DNA of 64,000 nucleotides from Brachybacterium sp. UMB0905 (GTDB taxonomy: Bacteria > Actinomycetota > Actinomycetes > Actinomycetales > Dermabacteraceae). The notes beneath the pieces are model-generated. The model worked only from the letters and a program-made list of their open reading frames with translations, was not told where the DNA came from and searched no databases. Made by a program: the position numbers and the translations under genes. Location: NCBI RefSeq assembly GCF_002871795.1, contig NZ_PNHL01000004.1, positions 1-64,000 on the forward strand, in the 5' to 3' direction. Of this stretch, positions 17,486 through 34,262 are shown piece by piece. Position 1 is the first letter of the stretch. Each line of letters opens with the position of its first letter.

Positions 17486-17536
17486 GCCTGAAGCGCCCCG
17501 GTGCGCTTCAGGCGCCGACGGTGCGGCGCCGTCGGC
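17486..17536. terminator. Two adjacent hairpins between convergent genes
   Basis: An 11-bp perfect repeat (GCCTGAAGCGC, 17486-17496 with 17503-17513) is followed at once by an 8-bp repeat (GCCGACGG, 17514-17521 with 17529-17536). They separate the convergent beta-mannosidase and dciA genes and likely stop transcription from both sides. Confidence 0.65.
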
Positions 17537-17549
17537 CGCGCACCCCACC

Positions 17550-18314
17550 TCACCCGTAGGTGTCGCGCGGTCCTCTCCAGGTCACGGTCCGGCGTCCCTT
17601 CTTCCAGGAGCGCTGTGCGGCGGCCGGGCCGGTGACCTTGAGCTCGGAGATCACGTGGGACCCGATGTGCTCCTCGATCGTGGTGATCAGCTGGGGCGTC
17701 AGCATCCGCAGCTGGGACGCCCAGGCCGAGGAGGAGGCGCTCACCACCAGGACCCCGGCCTCGAGGGAGACCGGTCTGCAGTGCGCGGCGAGGCGCTCGC
17801 CCACGATCTCGTCCCACTCCTCGAGCACTCTGCCGCTGTTCATCCCCTCGGTCCATCCCAGGCCGCCCAGCACCTTCCTCAGCACCGACTCGATGTCCTG
17901 GGGGTCGCGCGGATCGGGGCGGGACCCCGAATAGCCGGGTGCCCGCCCTGAGCGGTCCCGCAGATCTCGGGCCTGGGTCTTCGCAGAGATGGGGAAGAGG
18001 CCGCGGTCGCGCGCGGCGGCACGGGAGCGGTTGACGGTCCGCCGGGCGAGCTCGAAGGGATCGGCGGCGCTCGGCAGCTCCGGCGGGTCGTACAGCGGTT
18101 CGGCGTCGTCATCGCCGCGCTCGGCGCGAGCTGCGGACGCCGCTCCGGCCCTCGGCCGCCACGGTGCGCGGTCCCGGCCGCGCGTGGCCGCGGCAGCGGC
18201 ATGCCCGGGATCTTCCGCGCGCTGGTCGCCGTCGGCCGCGGCGGCGGACCAGGTCCCGAGGTCGTAGGGGTTGGCGAGTCGCGGGCGCTGGGCCGCCGGA
18301 CGAGGGGTGCTCAT
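17550..18314 (-). CDS. dciA: DUF721 protein, DciA-like helicase loader
   Basis: 254 residues. The first 130 residues are disordered and rich in Ala, Arg and Asp. The C-terminal DUF721 domain runs from DIESVLRKVLGGLGWTEGM through WDEIVGERLAAHCRPVSLE and VVSASSSAWASQLRMLTPQL. In bacteria without DnaC/DnaI, DciA interacts with DnaB and helps load the replicative helicase. Its ATG overlaps the recF stop by four bases, the standard actinobacterial order. Confidence 0.85.
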   Translation of the reverse strand: MSTPRPAAQRPRLANPYDLGTWSAAAADGDQRAEDPGHAAAAATRGRDRAPWRPRAGAASAARAERGDDDAEPLYDPPELPSAADPFELARRTVNRSRAAARDRGLFPISAKTQARDLRDRSGRAPGYSGSRPDPRDPQDIESVLRKVLGGLGWTEGMNSGRVLEEWDEIVGERLAAHCRPVSLEAGVLVVSASSSAWASQLRMLTPQLITTIEEHIGSHVISELKVTGPAAAQRSWKKGRRTVTWRGPRDTYG

Positions 18315-21145: not shown

Positions 21146-22693
21146 TCACTTCCGACCGGAGTTCGAGGACTTGATGCGTGCCGTCAGCTCGGTGACCTGG
21201 TTGAAGATCGCGCGCCGCTCCTTCATGAGCTCGCTGATCTTCTTGTTCGCGTGCATGACGGTGGTGTGGTCGCGGCCGCCGAACTCTTCGCCGATCTTGA
21301 TCAGCGGCATGTCCGTCAGTTCCCGGCACAGGTACATGCCGATCTGCCGAGCAGAGACCAGGCGGCGTGAACGCCCCGTGCCGATGATCTCCTCGACCGA
21401 GATCCCGAAGTATGTGGCGGTCTGCGCGATGATCGTCGAGGCCGTGATCTGGGTGCCGTCGTCGTGGGAGAGCAGGTCCTTCAGCACGCTCTCGGCGAGG
21501 GTGACGTCCATCGGCTGACGGGACAGGGAGTGCAGGGCCTGCACGCGGATCAGCGCGCCTTCGAGTTCGCGGATGTTCGTGGCGATATGGCTGGCGATGT
21601 ACTCCAGCACGTCATGGGGGACCTCCCCGGCGTCCTCCTGCGCGACCTTCTTGCGCAGGATCGCGATGCGGGTCTCGAGGTCCGGGGGCTGCACGTCGGT
21701 CATGAGCCCCATCTCGAAGCGGGAGCGCATACGGTCCTCGAAGCCGCCGAGCTCCTTGGGCGGCAGATCCGAGGTGATGACGATCTGCTTGTCCGAGTTG
21801 TACAGCGTGTTGAAGGTGTGGAAGAACGCCTCCATCGTCTCTGGGGCGCGCTGCAGGAACTGGATGTCGTCGATGAGGAGGATGTCGATATCGCGGTAGC
21901 GGCGCTGGAACTCCTGGGCCTTGCCGAACTGGCCGGACTGCACGGAGTTGATGAACTCGTTGGTGAACTCCTCGGAGTTGACGTACCGCACCACGATGTC
22001 CGGGTACAGCGACTTGGCGTAGTGGCCTACGGCGTGCAGCAGGTGGGTCTTGCCCAGTCCCGAGCCGCCGTAGATGAACAGCGGGTTGTACGCCTTCGCG
22101 GGGGTCTCGGCGACGGCGGAAGCCGCGGCCTGTGCGAAGCGGTTCGAGGAGCCGATGACGAAGGTGTCGAAGGTGTACTTGAAGTTCAGGCGCGAATCCT
22201 CACCCACCGGCGCGGGGGCGGGGGATGGCACCGGGGCAGAGGCCGCGGAGAAGGAGCGTGGCGGCAGCACCGGGGCGGTGGAGGGGACTGACGGGGCCGG
22301 TGCACCGGATTCGGCCGCTCTGTGGATATCCCGTTCCACTTTGTCCACAGGGTTGTCCACATCCTGTGCACGTGGCGCAGGTGGGGCCGCGGATACAGTC
22401 GGCGGGGCAGCATCTTCCTCATCATCGAACAGCAGCGATTCATCGACCGTCACCGCGAAGCGCATATCCTGGCCGGTCGCCTCGGACAGCGCCCCCTTCA
22501 GGGCGCCCGCATAGCGGTTCTCCAGCAGCTCCTTCAACGAGGTGGAAGGCACTGCGACCAGCGCGGTATCCGCCACCACGGCCATCAGCTCGGAGAGGGT
22601 CAGCAGGGCGTTCACGCGCTGGGAGACAGACTCGTCCTGGCGCAGGATCTGCAGGGCGCTGTCCCAGATCTCGGCGGCGCTCGGCTCGGCCAT
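21146..22693 (-). CDS. dnaA: Chromosomal replication initiator DnaA
   Basis: 515 residues from the ATG at 22693 (AGGGAG lies eight bases upstream). Domain I spans about residues 1-85 ([16 protein letters not shown]). Domain II, about 86-165, is a low-complexity Ala/Pro linker. The AAA+ domain III has Walker [14 protein letters not shown] near residue 210 and Walker [14 protein letters not shown]. Domain IV ends with the DnaA signature [16 protein letters not shown]. It opens oriC and recruits the helicase. The DNA for domain II also contains three DnaA boxes, annotated separately. Confidence 0.98.
22321..22361. promoter_or_regulatory. Cluster of three DnaA boxes inside the dnaA gene
   Basis: TGTGGATAT (22321-22329), TTGTCCACA (22341-22349) and TTGTCCACA (22353-22361). 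The last two match the actinobacterial DnaA box exactly. They fall in the codons for residues about 111-125, in the variable domain II linker, where sequence is free to drift. The match is seen directly; any binding or regulatory role is inferred. Confidence 0.6.
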
Positions 22694-23058
22694 GAGGTCA
22701 CTCCCTACGGGTCTGAGGTGGTCGGGATAGTTTTCCACAATCTTCCACAGAACAGCCAGTGATGTGGACCGCGGCTGTGGATGACCGGTCACACCAGCGC
22801 ACCGCACCCCGGGGGCACGATGAGAAACTGGCCACAACCGGCCGTTGAGCGCGCGGATCCGTTGACCCCTTGCGACCACCCCACCTAGACTCGGGCGGTC
22901 AGCGCTGCGGGTCATGTCCCTGATTCCCGTTCCCTCATTCCCGTTCCGGGGAACCTCGGCAGCCGCCCCGCCTCGGCGGGTGCGCCCGGACGTCCCGTTC
23001 GTGCAGCAGACCACAGACCACCGCGAGGGCACACCCGTGCCCACGACCGAGGAGAACC
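22694..23058. promoter_or_regulatory. Divergent dnaA-rpmH promoter region
   Basis: 365 gene-free bases between divergent dnaA and rpmH. For rpmH a clear sigma70-type promoter is visible: TTGACC (22862-22867), an 18-base spacer and TAGACT (22886-22891). For dnaA I see no certain promoter, but weak DnaA-box-like sequences (TTTCCACAA at 22731-22739, CTTCCACAG at 22742-22750, CTGTGGATG near 22775-22783) lie just upstream of the start and could allow self-regulation. Confidence 0.65.
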
Positions 23059-23196
23059 ATGAGCAAGCGCACGTTCCAGCCGAACAACCGCCGCCGCGCC
23101 AAGAAGCACGGCTTCCGCGCCCGCATGCGCACCCGCGCCGGCCGCGCCATCCTGAACGCCCGCCGCGCCAAGGGCCGCTCCGAGCTCTCCGCCTGA
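23059..23196 (+). CDS. rpmH: 50S ribosomal protein L34
   Basis: 45 residues, [19 protein letters not shown] through [13 protein letters not shown]. This is the full, highly basic L34 protein. The start ATG has GAGGAGAACC immediately upstream. It heads the rightward run rpmH-rnpA-yidD-yidC-jag-rsmG-parA-parB. Confidence 0.98.
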
Positions 23197-23228
23197 GTCG
23201 GCCTGAGCCGCCGGGTCGTGGTGCGTCC

Positions 23229-23735
23229 ATGAGCTGGTCCGCCCACCGGCTGCGCAGCAGCGAGCAGTTCCGCGCCGTCACCCGCGGTGGCGTGCGCAGC
23301 GCCCGATCCCACGTGGTTGTGCACCTCGGCCCCCTTCCAGAGGGGGACGGGCAGGCACCCCGCGTGGGATTCGTCGTGTCCAAGAAGATCGGCAACGCCG
23401 TGATCTGCAACCGCGTCACCCGTCGGCTGCGTGAGATCATCCGGCCACTGCTGGACGAGCTGCCCGCCGGCACCGGCGTGGTGGCCCGGGCCCTGCCCGG
23501 CATCGACCAGCAGCCTTTCGATCAGCTGCGTGAGGACGTCCAGGGAGCCCTCGCCTCCGCGGAGCGCAAGCTGCAGCGCCGCACCGTCGGCCGTCGCTCC
23601 CCCCGAGCGGGCACTGCGTCCAGAACGGGCACTGCCGCGGAGGCACCCCGCCCCGCCGCGGGGTCCGAGGCCACCGCTGGGACGGGGTCGGGGGCCACCC
23701 CCGGGACCACCCCGGCGCGGAAGGGGAGCCGATGA
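23229..23735 (+). CDS. rnpA: Ribonuclease P protein component
   Basis: 168 residues from ATG at 23229, giving [20 protein letters not shown]. The conserved RNR-like region reads [19 protein letters not shown]. RnpA binds RNase P RNA and helps cleave the 5' leader of tRNA precursors. The product is longer than usual (about 120 aa) because of a C-terminal tail of about 45 residues rich in Arg, Ala, Gly and Thr that looks disordered. The gene ends overlapping the yidD start. Confidence 0.95.
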
Positions 23736-25873: not shown

Positions 25874-26542
25874 GTGCAGATCGAGCTCCCCGAGAACCTG
25901 CAGCAGGTTGCCGCGCGTCTGCTCGGCGACCGCCTGCCGCTGGCCGAGCGTTTCGTCCGCCTGCTCGCGCAGCAGGGGGTCGAGCGCGGACTGATCGGCC
26001 CGCGGGAGGTGGACCGGCTGTGGGAGCGCCACCTGGTCAACTGCGCGCTGCTGGCTGATGCGATCGGCCCTGAGGTGCGCACGCTGGCGGACGTCGGCTC
26101 CGGGGCGGGCCTACCCGGCGTGGTCATCGCGATCGCGAGGCCGGAGCTTGAGATCACTCTGATCGAGACGATGCAGCGGCGCACCACCTGGCTCGATGAG
26201 GTCAATGGCGAGCTGGGCCTGGGCCTGGAGGTGGTGCGCGCCCGCGCCGAGGAGCTGCACGGGATAAGGCAGTTCGATGCGGTGACCGCACGGGCCGTGG
26301 CGGCGCTGGACAAGCTGGCGCGCTGGACCCTGCCACTGGTGGCCCCCGGCGGCGAGCTGCTGGCCATGAAGGGCTCCTCAGCGGCGCAGGAGATCGAGAA
26401 GGCGCACAAGGTTCTCACGAAGCTCGGCGGTGAGGATCCGCGCATCACGACCCACGGGGACGGCGAGGTGGAGGTTCCCACTACAGTGGTCCACGTGCGT
26501 CGCCGTGCCGAGGCGACCCGGAAGGGAGATGGACGTGGCTGA
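25874..26542 (+). CDS. rsmG: 16S rRNA (guanine527-N7)-methyltransferase
   Basis: 222 residues from a GTG two bases after the jag stop. Class I methyltransferase: the SAM-binding motif is LADVGSGAGLPGVVIAIARP near residue 75, followed by ITLIETMQRRTTWLDEV. RsmG methylates G527 of 16S rRNA; loss gives low-level streptomycin resistance. The 3' end overlaps the parA start region. Confidence 0.95.
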   Translation: MQIELPENLQQVAARLLGDRLPLAERFVRLLAQQGVERGLIGPREVDRLWERHLVNCALLADAIGPEVRTLADVGSGAGLPGVVIAIARPELEITLIETMQRRTTWLDEVNGELGLGLEVVRARAEELHGIRQFDAVTARAVAALDKLARWTLPLVAPGGELLAMKGSSAAQEIEKAHKVLTKLGGEDPRITTHGDGEVEVPTTVVHVRRRAEATRKGDGRG

Positions 26543-27458
26543 GAAGCGCGACGACTCCTCCACCAGCCCCGGCGCGATGGAGGACACCCCGCTGATGCGG
26601 GAGCTGACGCGCGATCATGCCCGTCGGCGACAGCTCGAGGGACTGGACTTCGAGGCGCCGCAGCGGACCCGCATCATCACGGTCGCGAACCAGAAGGGCG
26701 GGGTGGGCAAGACTTCATCGGCCGTGAACATCGCGGCGGCGCTCGCGATGGGCGGGCTGCAGGTGCTGGTCATCGACGCAGACCCGCAGGGCAACGCCTC
26801 GACGGCGCTGAGCATCGAGCATCACGCCGAGGTGCCGGGGATGTACGAGGTCCTCGTGGACTCCACCCCGATCGCCGAGATCATGCAGGAGGTCCCGGAC
26901 ATGCCGGGCCTGCTGTGCGCTCCGGCCACGATCAACCTCTCCGGGGCGGAGATCGAGCTGGTCTCCCTCGTGGCGCGGGAGAACCGCCTGAAGAACGCGA
27001 TCACCGAACTGCTTGAGCAGCGCGAGCATGAGGGACTGCCCCGCCTGGACTACGTGATCGTGGACTGCCCGCCGTCCCTTGGCCTGCTGACGGTCAACGC
27101 GCTCGTCGCAGCCCGCGAAGTGCTGATTCCGATCCAGGCGGAGTACTACGCGCTGGAGGGCCTGTCCCTGCTGCTGAACAACATCGAGCTGATCCGTCGG
27201 CACCTGAACCCGGATCTGGTGGTCTCCACCATCATGCTCACCATGTACGACGCCCGCACGCGGCTGGCGGCGCAGGTGGCGCAGGATGTGCGCGACCATT
27301 TCCCCGAGCAGACCCTGGAGACGACGATCCCGCGGTCGGTGCGGATCTCCGAGGCCCCCAGCTACGGGCAGACCGTGCTCACGTACGATCCGAGCTCAAG
27401 CGGTGCCCTCGCCTATCGCGCCGCTGCTCATGAGCTGAACTCCCGTACCGCCCCCTGA
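26535..27458 (+). CDS. parA: Chromosome partitioning ATPase ParA
   Basis: 307 residues if started at GTG 26535, which has GGAAGGGAG at a good distance. The in-frame ATG at 26529 is an alternative but would sit inside that ribosome binding site. Deviant Walker A KGGVGKTSSAVNIA, Walker A' VIDADPQGNAST and Walker B YVIVDCPPSLGLLT are all present. ParA binds DNA non-specifically and moves ParB-parS complexes apart. The start overlaps rsmG by eight bases. Confidence 0.97.
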   Translation: MAEKRDDSSTSPGAMEDTPLMRELTRDHARRRQLEGLDFEAPQRTRIITVANQKGGVGKTSSAVNIAAALAMGGLQVLVIDADPQGNASTALSIEHHAEVPGMYEVLVDSTPIAEIMQEVPDMPGLLCAPATINLSGAEIELVSLVARENRLKNAITELLEQREHEGLPRLDYVIVDCPPSLGLLTVNALVAAREVLIPIQAEYYALEGLSLLLNNIELIRRHLNPDLVVSTIMLTMYDARTRLAAQVAQDVRDHFPEQTLETTIPRSVRISEAPSYGQTVLTYDPSSSGALAYRAAAHELNSRTAP

Positions 27459-27522: not shown

Positions 27523-29316
27523 ATGACGCAGAAGCGCGGACTCGGACGCGGCTTGGGCGCCCTCATCCCGGGTGCGGGCTCTCCCGCCCCGGCTCCGGAG
27601 CCGGAGCTGCGCACGCGCACGCGCCCGGCCGGGGAGAACTCCAGCTCCTCGCGCCCGGTGGACATGTTCTTCTCCGGTGAACAGGTCGAACGCTCCGAGG
27701 AGCGAGCTCAGCGGCGCTCCAGCAGCCGAGACCTCGCCAATGACATGGCGAGGGCCGCCGCCGAGCGACGAGGGCGGGGCACCGCGAAGACCACCGCGAA
27801 GGGGCGCCGCAGCAGCGGGGACACGGAGACGGCCGACGGGGCCGAGGACACGGCGAAGGCCAGCACCCGGGCGCCGCGCACGAGTGGCGGGACAAAGCGC
27901 ACGACGACCACGAGCGCGGGGACGGGCACGGCTGCGAAGAGCGCGGCAGCGAAGAGCACATCGGCAAAGAGCACGGGCAAGAGTGCGGCATCGAAGAGCG
28001 CCGGGACGAAGCGCTCCGGCACAACGACCTCAGCGGCGAAGACCTCGGCCGGGGGGACGACCGACGACGCTCCCTCGACCAGCACGAAGACTGCTGCGAA
28101 GAAGACGGCCCCGCAGAAGCCTGCCGCGAGGAAGACCACCGCGAGGAAGACCACCGCGAAGAAGCCCGCGGCGAAGAGCTCCCCGGGCAACTCCTCGACC
28201 CGGAAGCCCTCGAGCGCCAAGACGAGTGACGCGACCGCTGACCAGCAGGTAAATGAGCCGATGCCCGAGAGCATCGAGACTGTCGATCAGGCGCCGGAGA
28301 CGGATCTCGCGGAGACCATCGGCGCAGCCCAGAGCCCCACTGACCCGGCGGTGACGGATGAGGGCACCGCGACCGCGGGCGCGTCAAGCGCTGTCACCGC
28401 AGAGCAGACCGATGAGGTACCCAGCGAGGCCCCGGCAGTCGACGAGCCGCGGGAACTGGTCAGCGTGCCGGGTGCGGAGTTCGCCGAGATCCCGATCCAC
28501 GAGATCCGCGAGAACCCCCGTAACCCTCGCACCCTCTTCGATGAGGACGAGCTGGATGAGCTCGCCTACTCGCTGCGCGAAGTCGGTGTGCTGCAGCCTG
28601 TCGTGGTGCGGCCCATCCCCGTCACCGCGGATGGTGAATCCTTCGAGCTGGTGATGGGTGAGCGCCGCTGGCGGGCCGCCCGCCGGGCCGGTCTGCCCGC
28701 GATCCCCGCGATCATCCGCGAGACCAGCGATGATGACCTGCTGCGCGATGCGCTGCTGGAGAACCTGCACCGCAGCCAGCTGAACCCGCTGGAGGAAGCG
28801 AACGCCTACCAGCAGCTCCTGGATGACTTCGGCTGCACCCAGGACGAGCTCGGTGAACGCATCGGCCGTTCCCGTCCCCAGATCACCAACACGCTTCGCC
28901 TGCTGCGCCTGCCTGCACTGGTGCAGCGCCGGCTAGCCAGCGGAGCGATCAGCGCCGGGCACGCCCGTGCCCTGCTCTCGCTCGACAGCCCCGCGCTCAT
29001 GGAAGAGCTCGCCCAGCGGATCGTCAGCGAGGGCCTGTCCGTGCGGGCCGTGGAACGCCTCGTGGCCCGCGGCGGCCGCGACACCACCTCCCGTCCCGTG
29101 CGACGCAGCACCTATGACCCGCACGTTGTGGACCTGACGAGCCGGCTGTCCAACCGCCTCGAGACCCCGGTGCGGATCGATGTGGGCAAGCGCAAGGGCC
29201 GGATCACCCTCGAGTTCACGAACCTCGACGACCTCGATCGCCTGGTGGAGAGCATGGGACTGGATATCCCGCTCCCCCAGGGGAGTGCTGACGACGACGA
29301 CGCCGCACAGGAGTGA
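27523..29316 (+). CDS. parB: Chromosome partitioning protein ParB with long H1-like linker
   Basis: 597 residues, against about 330-400 in most actinobacteria. Residues 1-16 (MTQKRGLGRGLGALIP) are the ParA-activating peptide. Residues about 80-240 are low complexity, rich in Lys, Ala, Thr and Ser, with histone H1-like blocks at 187-223 (KKTAPQKPAARKTTARKTTA). Residues 245-320 are acidic. The CTP-binding ParB domain starts near 322 (EIPIHEIRENPRNPR), with GERRWRA at 379-385. The helix-turn-helix is at about 438-470 (GERIGRSRPQITNTLRLLRL) and the dimerisation domain closes the protein. The core is intact, so it should bind CTP and parS. The extra linker accounts for the added length. Confidence 0.96.
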   Translation: MTQKRGLGRGLGALIPGAGSPAPAPEPELRTRTRPAGENSSSSRPVDMFFSGEQVERSEERAQRRSSSRDLANDMARAAAERRGRGTAKTTAKGRRSSGDTETADGAEDTAKASTRAPRTSGGTKRTTTTSAGTGTAAKSAAAKSTSAKSTGKSAASKSAGTKRSGTTTSAAKTSAGGTTDDAPSTSTKTAAKKTAPQKPAARKTTARKTTAKKPAAKSSPGNSSTRKPSSAKTSDATADQQVNEPMPESIETVDQAPETDLAETIGAAQSPTDPAVTDEGTATAGASSAVTAEQTDEVPSEAPAVDEPRELVSVPGAEFAEIPIHEIRENPRNPRTLFDEDELDELAYSLREVGVLQPVVVRPIPVTADGESFELVMGERRWRAARRAGLPAIPAIIRETSDDDLLRDALLENLHRSQLNPLEEANAYQQLLDDFGCTQDELGERIGRSRPQITNTLRLLRLPALVQRRLASGAISAGHARALLSLDSPALMEELAQRIVSEGLSVRAVERLVARGGRDTTSRPVRRSTYDPHVVDLTSRLSNRLETPVRIDVGKRKGRITLEFTNLDDLDRLVESMGLDIPLPQGSADDDDAAQE

Positions 29317-29486: not shown

Positions 29487-29570
29487 GTAAATGTGTAGGC
29501 CCGGACCCCGTCGCGGCGGTGGTTCTCGTCTGACGCTGCTGTCTGCCTGCAGCTATACCCCGTGATGTGC

Positions 29571-29602
29571 TTATCCACTGATGTGCACAACACTGTGGAT
29601 AA
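29571..29602. promoter_or_regulatory. Pair of DnaA boxes at the parB side of the parS region
   Basis: TTATCCACT (29571-29579) and TGTGGATAA (29594-29602) face each other with fourteen bases between. The second is an exact consensus DnaA box and the first differs at one end position. They mark the left border of the parS-variant array. Confidence 0.6.
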
Positions 29603-29854
29603 ATCGATGCAGGCTACGGCGCCGACTCAGCTCTCGGATCCCGAAGTGGACCTGGATGAGGGTGGAGTCCTCCTCCGCTGGCCGCCGGTGAGCCTCTCGG
29701 ACCTCGTGTGGGTCTGCTGTCAGATAGTTCTCTGCCGCGTGACAAAATGCCCGTGCGGGTGCGTGGGTGAGACCGCTGAATGCACGCGGCTCTGTCTACC
29801 TCGTGGGGTCGTGATCTGTACGAGGCGGTGTGTAGGGGGAAGGTTCGAGCAACA

Positions 29855-32364
29855 GTTTCCCGTGAAACTCCGGCCGCTAGATGCGACGTAGAGCGGTGCA
29901 TAAGGGGCTGAGCTGCAGGGAGCCCGTGCCCACTGTTTCCCGTGAAACCTAGAAGATCGCCAGCGGCCGCGCCTCAAGGCGCACCCCGATCACAGTTGTC
30001 GGGCGTTTTCGTATGCGGAGCCATCACCATGTTTCGCGTGAAACGATGCGTTGAAAACGAACGACCATGGAGGATGGGGCCTCCCTCATAGCGACAATCC
30101 GCGCTCTCGCCTGGAGCTCCAGGCTGACTGAGTACGCGAAATGTTTCCCGTGAAACGCGGGAGTCGGAGGGCGTGCGCTCGTGGGCGAATGCTCTGCCGG
30201 GAAGGGGTTCATGGGCTGCCGGTGCGCGGCTTTGGCTATTCATGTTGGCGTTGACGATGGGTGATGACGCCACGTGGACATGTTCCACGGGAAACGTGCA
30301 CCGTTCGGCATGCTGTACGCACTCCCCGGGGACCGCGGCGAACTGTTCAGCATGACGATCCTCGGTCGCAAGTTGGAGCCGCTGAGCCCCGGTGCGTCAT
30401 CTGCTCCTCCTGCGAAGCGAACCCAGGAGCAGCTCATGTTCCTGGTCCGTCTATCTGGCGTCACACGATCTCCATTTCACGCACCCTGTGAATTATCGAC
30501 TCGCATGTACGCCCCATCCCCCGTGATGGCGGTGATGTATCGGTGCGTCAGCCGAAGAGCCCCTGCCCTATGTCGAGCGCATCTCGCGGATCCAACAGTT
30601 CACGCGTGTCACCCGTCCGATAGGTTTCACGGGAAACTCAGCGATTGGGCGGCTCGACGATCACTCCACGGACTGCATGCATGAGAGTGGTGCATCAGCA
30701 GCCCAGGCGTCGTCTGCACGTCGCCATTGTGTGAGGAAGCAGTCCCGGCCCGAGCCTCAAGTCTCCGCAGTCAATACGGTCTCGGTCGGGATGGGTTTCC
30801 ACAGTGTTTCCCGTGAAACCCAGCAGCGGGAACAGTCGGCGACGCGGTACTGATGCGAGGGGCCATGAGGGTTCACACTGCGTGTCGGGTTCCCGCGCAA
30901 GAGGTCTGCGAGCGGGTTTGTCAGCGCTGTTTCATGTGAAACTGCGCCCCGAGGCCCTCGAGAGGATGATCCCCGCTCATCCCGTAGTGGCACGGACAGG
31001 AGTGCGCCGCAGCACAGACTCAACGGCGATCTGATATGGAGTGGATGGTGCTCTTGATTGGTACGAAGCCTCCACAGCACGGAGTTTCACGGGAAACATG
31101 CCGTGCAACGTGGCGTAACGGGTGGTCACGCCTCACTCGCGCGCTCAGTGGGGTCTGAGGAAGCGTGGGCATGGGTAGACACCCTTCAGGGACACGCGAC
31201 GGGCACCCCGTGATCTGCGTGCCTGAGAGGTTGATCTACGAGAATGCCTACTGGGGTTCATCGATGTCAGCTGCTATGAGACTGTTGACATTTCCCGTGA
31301 AACGCTGTGCTGTCTAGCGAAGGACGGCTGCGCAAGCCCAGGGCGTGGGGCGGACTGGTATGTGCCCCTGACCCTCCTTGCGCTCTGAGGAGCTGAGTGG
31401 AAGCAGTCGGTCCAATGGTTCACATGAAACCCACTGTGGAGTATGTCGGCTCGGCCCTCTCTCAGGTCCCTAGAGTCGCGGAAGACGATGGCACTGCCGC
31501 TGATAAGGCGCGCGACGCCGCATACTGTGCTGCATGGCATGGTTTCGCGTGAAACCAGAAGAACCGCAAGGAGCCAGAGGGAATGTCGGCCCCTGGGCGT
31601 CACCCTTGGAACCGGCCTGCAGGTAGGCTCGCGCGGTGTTCATGCCTGACTGTCACCGGTCTCCGTGATGACTAAGAGCACCTGAAAGAGGGCAGGGGCG
31701 ATGGGAGCCCCCGAGGAGAAAAGCCCGCAGCATTCATTGATACAGAAATTGTTGGACCGTCAGGAAGATGTCTAGCCTCGGGTTTCACGGGGAACCGACT
31801 TCCTTTTCACTCCCCAGACATGGGTCCTCTATGGACCACCGGCGGGTTGAGAGAGTCGGATCTCGAGCGCCGAGCCCTCTGCGGACAGCCCCGCTCGATA
31901 GTCCATAGCATCAGAGCAGGCGCCGGGCGAGTACGGTGTCGCCCTCGGTGCACCTACCGATCCGGTGTCTCAGGCTCAAGGGTGCCGACAATTCGCCTCT
32001 ATGCCACGATGACCTGCACTGATGATCGGTGTGAACGGGAGATGGACTGCGGGTGTACAACGAAACCCTGCGCCAGGCAGGTTTCCTGTGGAACGTGGTG
32101 AGACCGCAACAGGGTCGCGTTTCGTGTGAAACTTGTCCTCCCCCGGAGAGGGGAGATCGCGGTGCAGCTCTGGCTCCCGGCACCCGGCGTGTGTGCGGTG
32201 ACAGATGCTCACTCGGCGCATGCAACGATCGATACACCTGAGCGGCTGGCCGGCCGGACGTCTGGTGGTTCAGAGTTCTCGGACTCTCGGGAGCTGTCAT
32301 GCACACTGTGTGCGCAGCAGTGTGGATAAGTGGCTCTCGTGTGCCCGTACTGTCCACGTGAAAC
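29855..32364. repeat. parS-variant array (about sixteen ParB-site-like 14-mers)
   Basis: Compared with the consensus GTTTCACGTGAAAC. One mismatch: 29855, 29935, 30143 and 30806 (all GTTTCCCGTGAAAC), 30624 and 31084 (its reverse complement, GTTTCACGGGAAAC), 30031 and 31542 (GTTTCGCGTGAAAC), and 30929 (GTTTCATGTGAAAC). Two mismatches: 30282, 31290, 31417, 31782 and 32119. Three mismatches: 32081 and 32351. Each position is the first base of the 14-mer. None is the perfect palindrome. The host region (29317-32826, 3.5 kb) has no believable gene, lies directly after parB and is lower in GC than its surroundings. ParB loading and spreading here is inferred from the sites. Confidence 0.85.
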
Positions 32365-32563
32365 TGTGTATGAGCGAAGGACTTCCGCGTCACCAGATCG
32401 GCAGCACAATATCCACACCTGTTCATCAGCACTGGTCAGGGCATTTGTGCGAGAGGTTCTCAGGACAAAACATCTCGAGAGCTGTCCACACCCGATTGTG
32501 GATAGCTGTGTGGACAGGCCCTCCCATCACTGTGGATAACAGTGTGGAAGACGCTGTGGATGG
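32321..32563. promoter_or_regulatory. DnaA-box cluster at the trx side of the parS region
   Basis: TGTGGATAA at 32321-32329 and 32531-32539 (exact), CTGTCCACA at 32482-32490, TGTGGACAG at 32509-32517, TGTGGATAG at 32497-32505, ATATCCACA at 32409-32417, and the weaker TGTGGATGG at 32555-32563. Seven boxes or near-boxes in 243 bases is denser than in the dnaN-dnaA region. Possible roles are DnaA titration or part of the origin; both are inference. Confidence 0.65.
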
Positions 32564-32714
32564 AGCATCGCAGCACGTCGCAGGGATACGCGGTGTGGAT
32601 TTGACAGCAGCCTCGTGCCCGGTCTGGCCGGGGCCCACAAAATCGCACCGCAGTGCTCAGGGCTGCGGTGCTAGGAGGGTGGCCTTACCCGGGCACGTAC
32701 CGTGACGCGCCGTC

Positions 32715-32783
32715 GGCGCGGCACCGCGTCCGCCCCCCGCGCGATACCGCGTCCGCCCTCCGCGCGATACCGCGTGCGCCCAT
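32715..32783. repeat. Three 23-bp tandem repeats
   Basis: Units at 32715-32737, 32738-32760 and 32761-32783 share the core ACCGCGTCCGCCC with few differences (GATACCGCGT in the last two). They end just before the thioredoxin-like gene and mark the end of the gene-free region. Not part of a coding frame. Confidence 0.7.
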
Positions 32784-32826
32784 GACGGCCCCGGTGCGGA
32801 CATCGGCCCCGGGGCTGTGCTACCTG

Positions 32827-33198
32827 TCATGCTGCGCCCGGACCGAACTCTGCATCCACCGCATGCTTCGGCAGCGCCCCATCCCGTCGGTGGAGGACCT
32901 GCCAGGGTCCCTCCCACACGGCGTCCTCCCCGCTCCCCGTCGTGCCGGAGAGTTCGGGAATCGTCTGCGGACCTTCTCCTGGGGCGCACAGCAGCCACGT
33001 CGGCAGCACATTGACCTGCAGCTGGTCGAGCACGGCGTCATCGGGATCCTCGATGAGTAGAGTGCGTCGGCCCTCTCCCCATCGCCGCGCAAGCTCCCGC
33101 AGCACCGTCGGGGCCGGACGTGACGGGCCCGCCCAGTCGGCGGAGACCAGAACGACGACCCGGTCGTCGGCCTCGGTTTCCGCCACAGACGCACTCAC
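32827..33198 (-). CDS. Thioredoxin-like protein lacking both active-site cysteines
   Basis: 123 residues. [20 protein letters not shown] is the thioredoxin strand and active-site helix, but the usual WCGPC reads WAGPS (A23, S26). The cis-proline region NVLPTWLL is kept, and a thioredoxin-like beta pair follows. Actinobacteria usually carry a normal trxA directly after trxB here, so position suggests descent from trxA. The gene overlaps the trxB stop by four bases. It cannot do dithiol reduction. A chaperone, binding or regulatory role is possible but unproven. Confidence 0.75.
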
Positions 33199-34262
33199 GC
33201 CTGCGGGGCCGCGGTCCCCTGAGCTTCCGCGGAATCCTCAGCATCCTGGTCCGCGAGCCACCGTTCCGCGTCGAGAGCGGCCTGGCAGCCGGTGCCCGCC
33301 GCGGTGATCGCCTGGCGGTACGTGTGGTCCACGACGTCACCGGCCGCGAACACGCCCGGCACCGAGGTGTAGGTGCCCCGCCCCTGGCACACGATGTATC
33401 CCTCATCGTCGAGCTCGAGCTTTCCATGCACCAGATCCGTGCGCGGCAGATGCCCGATCGCCTCGAAGACCGCGGAGGTGGGATGCTCGCGCTCCTCACC
33501 GGTCACGGTGTCCCGCAGCGTCACCGACTGCACCGACTCCGTGCCGTTGATCCGCGCGATCTCCGTGTTCCACAGGATCTGCAGCTTCGGATCGGCCTCC
33601 GCGCGGCGCGCCATGATCTTCGAAGCCCGCAGCTCATCGCGTCGGTGCACGAGCGTCACGGACTTCCCGAAGCGGGTCAGGAACGTCGCCTCCTCCACGG
33701 CGCTGTCACCGCCGCCCACCACGATGATGTCCTGATCCTTGAAGAAGAACCCGTCGCAGGTCGCGCACCAGCTCACCCCCTTGCCGGAGAGCTCCTCCTC
33801 GCCGTCCACTCCGAGCTTGCGGTACGCCGAGCCGGTGGTGAGGATCAGCGCCCGAGCCCGATGCACCGTGCCATCGGCCAGCGTCACCTGCTTGACTTCT
33901 CCCTCGAGCTCGAGCTCGACGGCATCGTCGTAGATCACCTCCGCACCGAAGCGCTCGGCCTGCTCCTGCATCTGGGTCATGAGCTCCGGGCCCTGAATGC
34001 CGCTCGGGAAACCCGGGAAGTTCTCCACATCGGTGGTGGTCATGAGCGCCCCACCCGCATCCAGAGCCCCGGCGATCACCAGCGGCTTCATCTCCGCCCG
34101 GGCTGTGTAGATGGCGGCGGTGTACCCGGCCGGACCGGAGCCGACGATGATCACCTCATGGATGGGGCCTGCCTGCTCCCCGGCGGCGACCGGCGCGGTC
34201 TGCGGCTCGGCGGGAGTCGCCGAGGTGCCGAGGATGTTCAGGGCCTGGATGGGCTGGGTCAT
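33195..34262 (-). CDS. trxB: Thioredoxin reductase
   Basis: 355 residues. An extra 35-residue N-terminal tail precedes the FAD motif [20 protein letters not shown]. The redox-active pair is WCATCDG (C166, C169). The NADPH motif is [20 protein letters not shown], and the C-terminal FAD motif is [17 protein letters not shown]. All catalytic parts are intact, in contrast to the cysteine-less partner encoded next. It moves electrons from NADPH to thioredoxin. Its true thioredoxin substrate must be encoded elsewhere. Confidence 0.97.

Follow-up and report, generated by a model that had tools for sequence, protein, structure and literature searches.

The 64-kb stretch of DNA analysed here (the window) is origin-near chromosomal DNA of Brachybacterium, in which the partition genes parA and parB are followed by a compact array of imperfect 14-bp parS sites, the candidate binding sites of ParB. 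Profile matches identify recF, dnaN, dnaA, yidC, jag, rsmG, parA and parB in the neighbourhood, with trxB past the gap. Among named records, those nearest to its ParB come from 13 Brachybacterium genomes, followed by Dermabacter hominis. The array and its immediate surroundings are:

29855..32364, strand not assigned: array of 16 imperfect parS sites of 14 bp each, from a pattern scan; array kept in 34 genomes of the genus
Starts of parS-like sites 1-8: 29855, 29935, 30031, 30143, 30282, 30624, 30806, 30929
Starts of parS-like sites 9-16: 31084, 31290, 31417, 31542, 31782, 32081, 32119, 32351
26430..27458, forward strand: parA, partition ATPase (Pfam AAA_31, 2.2e-53; NCBIfam ParA_partition, 1.5e-30, under cut-off)
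27523..29316, forward strand: parB, 597 amino acids (TIGR00180, 2.5e-54; Pfam ParB_N, HTH_ParB and ParB_C)
33195..34262, reverse strand: trxB (TIGR01292, 3.8e-118), the distal boundary of the gene-free gap

The true start of parA may lie further inside its open reading frame (ORF). A sequence-only reading had described the region after parB as gene-free and, as far as tested, it is: none of the ten ORFs in 29562-33194 has a Pfam match, and an ORF at 32827-33198 on the reverse strand has only a sub-cut-off profile match and may be a small gene next to trxB.

A scan of the window with GTTTCNCGTGAAAC (at most three mismatches, both strands) gave 39 strand-matches where 6.3 are expected from shuffled sequence. 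Thirty-two of these fall within 29855-32364, which amounts to 16 places each read on both strands. Compared with the perfect parS GTTTCACGTGAAAC, nine sites have one mismatch, five have two, two have three and none is perfect; the total, the nine singles and the lack of a perfect site agree with the first count. The six copies of the commonest form over both orientations were likewise recovered, with GTTTCCCGTGAAAC at 29855, 29935, 30143, 30624 (reverse), 30806 and 31084 (reverse). Gaps within the window array range from 38 to 342 bp. The array holds 14 sites with two mismatches or fewer, against about 0.006 per 2 kb by chance at equal base frequencies. The locus thus combines sites near GTTTCACGTGAAAC clustered above chance, a linked parA, a cytidine triphosphate (CTP)-type parB with the ParB helix-turn-helix (HTH) and proximity to the origin. 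The window and 36 of 38 genomes of the genus lack a perfect site; a perfect or high-affinity one is usual in a chromosomal ParABS centromere, though not strictly defining.

Genome-wide statements rest on related Brachybacterium genomes rather than on that of the window itself. The array follows parB in all 34 that have a ParB match, and together with the window these supply 35 arrays (447 sites). The tally of sites with zero or one mismatch across each of the 34 genomes equals that in its array, and confinement to the array rests on this equality of counts. By the same counts these relatives carry no perfect sites elsewhere, and the proposal of one packed cluster stands. The further description of the cluster as a strong loading zone fits the zone only as a whole, since the individual sites look weakened. 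Perfect parS occurs in two of 38 genomes of the genus and in nine of nine other genomes of the family. Spacers can be aligned by blastn between some species pairs only, while the number of sites stays at 10-17, which indicates that the sites are retained as the intervening DNA turns over. With 300 bp added on each side, 34 arrays (leaving aside G025) contain 5, 228, 201, 35 and 27 sites with zero, one, two, three and four mismatches, and the chance expectation for the three- and four-mismatch classes is 3.0 and 24.5. In G025 (L116) the array is shifted and broken up by several kb behind parB.

The property that recurs is the strength of the sites and not one sequence. A lineage-specific consensus had been suggested in place of random decay; the sites indeed do not look decayed, but GTTTCCCGTGAAAC is merely the commonest of many forms. 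The nine arrays from other genera of the family hold 54 perfect sites, and their one-mismatch sites (singles, named by base of the half-site) are dominated by T4C (26, with C7T 6, G1A 5, A6C 4 and others at most 2). This dominance beside so many perfect sites makes T4C look like the mildest change. In Pseudomonas aeruginosa the perfect parS is itself reported to have T4C in each of its two arms (PMC4368675). The 447 Brachybacterium sites include five perfect ones, and the singles are A6C 92, A6G 36, T2C 27, T4G 25 and T4C 16, so that singles of the severe kind abound and the mildest are few. There is no T4C single in 28 of the 35 arrays, and at base 4 T4G exceeds T4C, the reverse of the order outside the genus (1 against 26). 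T4C occurs 163 times across 145 double sites, so that the mild mismatch is mostly paired with a second one. In the 26 crown arrays 1 site is perfect, the singles are T4C in 4 cases, A6C in 76 and another change in 90, and T4C is present in 113 doubles but missing from 52; the corresponding numbers for the nine early-branching genomes are 4, 12, 16, 40, 32 and 7.

Relaxed selection would offer one account of these classes, with redundant sites on a flat-topped landscape tolerating one or two mismatches and GC-rich mutation drifting them from the perfect sequence. Tolerated one-mismatch sequences far outnumber the perfect one, GC-raising changes prevail (A6C, T4C, A6G, T2C, T4G), and a multi-site zone is redundant, one parS being enough in Corynebacterium glutamicum according to PMC7083940. 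Moreover, in 26 other GC-rich genomes of the order that lack perfect sites, the stretches examined contain 133 sites with one mismatch. However, the neutral odds of T4C and A6C, taken from spacer composition, are equal (1.84) and T4C looks the milder change, so that under drift T4C singles should be no fewer than A6C singles, whereas 16 and 92 were observed (4 and 76 in the crown). Drift on a flat top thus does not yield the observed bias. The 35 three-mismatch sites, set against 429 with one or two mismatches, indicate that decay is restrained. Relaxed selection is therefore improbable as the explanation.

Strength models were fitted to sites made of T4C and A6C only, with log-likelihood (logL) expressed below saturation. 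In the crown (150 sites) a model with a window of intermediate strength reached -18.2, compared with -56.8 for a multiplicative model, -60.1 for a flat top, -56.8 for a monotone sigmoid and -41.1 for a monotone model with free neutral odds, the last also telling against relaxed selection. For the 85 sites from outside the genus, monotone models describe the data well (logL -0.4). Given the near-identical HTH, the order of affinities is likely shared with the other genera and, if that common order is assumed, the superior fit of the intermediate-strength model over monotone and flat models suggests selection against strong sites, and for intermediate strength, across the genus.

Several points weigh against this interpretation. 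The affinity order is taken from other genera and P. aeruginosa, not from the ParB of this genus. The fit of the intermediate-strength model is imperfect, and its lead shrinks over all 35 arrays (198 sites), where its logL of -28.3 compares with -39.2 for the monotone sigmoid, -36.4 with free neutral odds, -45.7 for the flat top and -54.0 for the multiplicative model. The Fisher tests on site classes between the genus and the nine other-genus arrays (6.5e-18 and 1.5e-46) count sites as independent. Strong sites are not lethal, since four perfect sites along with five T4C singles persist in G018 and one perfect site persists in G028. In the ParB tree, early Brachybacterium does not separate from the other genera. 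Spacing is evener than random placement (p<0.05) in 31 of 35 genus arrays, with a median gap of 139 bp between sites, but even spacing is also found in five of nine other-genus arrays and is thus not peculiar to weak sites; the G025 array is uneven and fails the test.

On balance, we propose that the array is probably the Brachybacterium chromosomal centromere, in which some 13-16 evenly spaced ParB sites are each selected for intermediate strength, for reasons that would lie in a catalyst mechanism. All sites in the non-coding stretch of roughly 2.5 kb after parB would work jointly as one loading zone. Perfect and near-perfect sites would be purged, and sites weakened by a single severe mismatch, or by two of a milder kind, retained. 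A catalytic role of parS in loading the ParB clamp has been reported (PMC8494293). Such a site would bind ParB, permit CTP-dependent clamp closure and then have to release ParB; a catalyst that retains its product is slow, and we infer that the optimum would lie under maximum strength. The general DNA affinity of ParB is probably raised in the genus, which would make a weaker site optimal, and total ParB loading would be fixed by the number and spacing of sites.

The ParB protein itself has an N-terminal GLGRGLGALIP, a low-complexity linker of about 300 amino acids, a ParB_N/CTP domain, the HTH and a dimerisation domain; the HTH reading-helix motif and the CTP motif were found in 43 of 43 ParBs examined. 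Were ParB specificity altered, the sites might instead follow a new asymmetric consensus, GTTTCCC|GTGAAAC, with one Noc-like half in which base 6 is C. No other form is as frequent in the genus. Base 6 is among the two bases that distinguish parS from the Noc site, and the column matching Caulobacter residue 184 holds Arg or Lys, which Jalal et al. (PMC7383237) term permissive through general affinity. Against this, Arg or Lys is also present in other genera that keep perfect sites, and in the alignment to Caulobacter ParB (6t1f) the contact residues, including the equivalents of R173, T179 and G201, are of ParB type. The perfect site, one step away from the supposed consensus, is rarer than two-step forms (the T2C, T4G and A6G singles), and two C6 halves are combined in only one of 447 sites. 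There is no fixed HTH difference, and the three weak diagnostic columns all lie outside the HTH. A change of ParB recognition was accordingly rejected as a cause and is very unlikely.

Less likely still, and highly improbable, is use of the sites by a different DNA-binding protein or by a second ParB or Noc. Apart from the Noc-like C at base 6 nothing direct speaks for it. Contacts of the Q173/R201 type and ATTTCCCGGGAAAT sites, as expected of Noc and its binding site (NBS), are absent, R and G standing in those columns, and no site is near NBS save the one with two C6 halves. The half-sites therefore resemble NBS at base 6, as described in PMC7383237, but differ from it in the single co-occurrence of C6 in both halves, an unaltered base 1 and ParB-type contact residues. 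No second ParB was found in the genus at E<=1e-20. A weak second match was seen in G045, from another genus.

The ParB linker was considered as a cause of the weakening. Arrays with more mismatches on average go with longer linkers (rho 0.63 over 42 genomes and 0.49 over the 34 of the genus), and tree-corrected contrasts agree (r 0.50, p 0.001, 39 contrasts; r 0.46, p 0.008, 32 genus contrasts). Within the genus neither the number of Lys and Arg (rho 0.14) nor net charge (rho -0.17) correlates, several linker features were tried, and G043 has seven perfect sites despite a linker of 404 residues; the linker as the cause of weakening is thus a lead only. In the window the linker (27523-28480) is rich in Lys, Ala, Thr and Ser and then acidic.

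Other explanations of the site pattern were discarded. Orientation is unbiased (174 against 146), and double mismatches lie in the same half 95 times and in different halves 109 times, near the roughly 83 and 121 expected from position frequencies (chi-square about 3); asymmetry or orientation as a selected trait was therefore rejected. Restriction avoidance of CACGTG is ruled out, CACGTG being intact in many imperfect sites. No helical phasing of spacing was found. Sites at array edges have more mismatches than central ones (rho 0.29 in the genus, 0.24 outside), and the gradient towards the DnaA-box cluster is slight (rho 0.11); since both edges are weaker, inside and outside the genus, weakening to shield that cluster was rejected.

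As in C. glutamicum-type actinobacterial ParABS, about ten or more ParB sites of 14-16 bp cluster near the origin in linkage with parAB. Unlike the ten parS in 35 kb of C. glutamicum (PMC7083940), the Brachybacterium sites are evenly spread over about 2.5 kb inside a single gene-free gap with none perfect, and SMC-ScpAB was not found in Brachybacterium kin. Graded site strengths recall parS1-10 of P. aeruginosa, where, according to PMC4368675, perfect and one-mismatch sites near oriC work, weak ones are idle, and two mismatches in one arm are better tolerated than mismatches in both; the Brachybacterium array, in contrast, is made of imperfect sites only. Arrays of Dermabacter and others in the family (L012, L097-L106) share the position behind parB, the number and spacing of sites and the DnaA boxes beyond, but differ in that each genome has 3-9 perfect sites.

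SMC-ScpAB appears to be missing from the family. ScpA was found in one of 47 family genomes (G045), in a search of kin in which ScpB and MukB/MksB were not searched for, and SMC above cut-off in one of 22 tested (also G045). SMC-ScpAB, expected at an SMC-loading centromere, is thus missing as judged on kin only. The perfect sites of G045 are scattered over about 7 kb. In the sample of 297 genomes from the order, 254 have ScpA; 33 of 40 non-family genomes have SMC above cut-off, and in four of the remaining seven it is in pieces. By hand count, 20 further ScpA-less genomes of the order, many small or possibly incomplete, have 0-7 perfect parS and show no general link, so SMC loss was rejected as a general cause of dense arrays. 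A literature search on Dermabacter smc and chromosome segregation found no report, most subscription papers being outside its reach.

Perfect parS is present in 232 of 297 sampled genomes of the order. Forty-eight non-genus genomes lack it, of which 32 have one-mismatch sites; loss of perfect sites is thus not unique to Brachybacterium, the exclusion of mild singles having been examined within the family only. The 26 of these 48 read around parB, picked for zero perfect sites, add to their one-mismatch sites four with two mismatches in one half and ten with one per half. Thirteen of 14 control stretches around parB hold 3-10 perfect sites and one (G132) none. Other GC-rich genomes of the order (among them L132, L137 and L140-L143) have only sites with one perfect half and a GTTCCAC or GTTTCCC half, as in 8/8 sites of G145 and 5/5 of G252. 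Such hybrid sites in other lineages (n=144) comprise 39 synonymous, 84 non-synonymous and 21 outside a long ORF; the tally used the longest open frame, unreliable in GC-rich DNA, and leaves pressure on third codon positions (GC3) undecided as their cause.

A wider and distinctly more tentative reading is that parS strength is a lineage-tuned trait with a sub-maximal optimum, in an SMC-less family whose single, evenly spaced array is fused to the origin. Most relatives would then sit at perfect sites, some GC-rich members of the order exactly one mild mismatch away from them and Brachybacterium lower still. The number of weak sites would determine loading, which would also be coupled to the long disordered linker. 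The usual picture of parS is a near-invariant palindrome, for which greater strength is assumed to be better. If the present interpretation is true, a genus that excludes strong sites while keeping a dozen middling ones would place the optimum of parS strength below its maximum and supply natural variants for quantitative tests of the clamp-loading model. The apparent loss of SMC-ScpAB would likewise make the family a natural system for the roles of ParB and site layout without condensin loading.

The array adjoins the densest DnaA-box cluster nearby. The relevant features are:

21146..22666, reverse strand: dnaA (TIGR00362, 9.3e-150, on ORF 21146-23503, residues 280-777; start estimated from the family match)
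29571..29602, strand not assigned: three DnaA-box-like sites (one exact) ahead of the array
32321..32551, strand not assigned: seven DnaA boxes (two exact), candidate oriC, overlapping the last weak parS site and extending beyond it

dnaA lies about 7 kb from the parS array, in the conventional neighbourhood of an origin. The density of boxes makes the cluster at 32321-32551 a candidate oriC away from dnaA; the skew plateau is broad and does not separate the two. In several species the cluster combines a palindrome resembling TGCACACTGTGCG with a stretch of the GCAGGTCA type and 12-bp box spacing (including G014, contig C1, about 17500-18300). Elsewhere in the order, too, DnaA-box clusters occur in the midst of parS sites (L141, L142, L143, L139, L157, L158 and L161).
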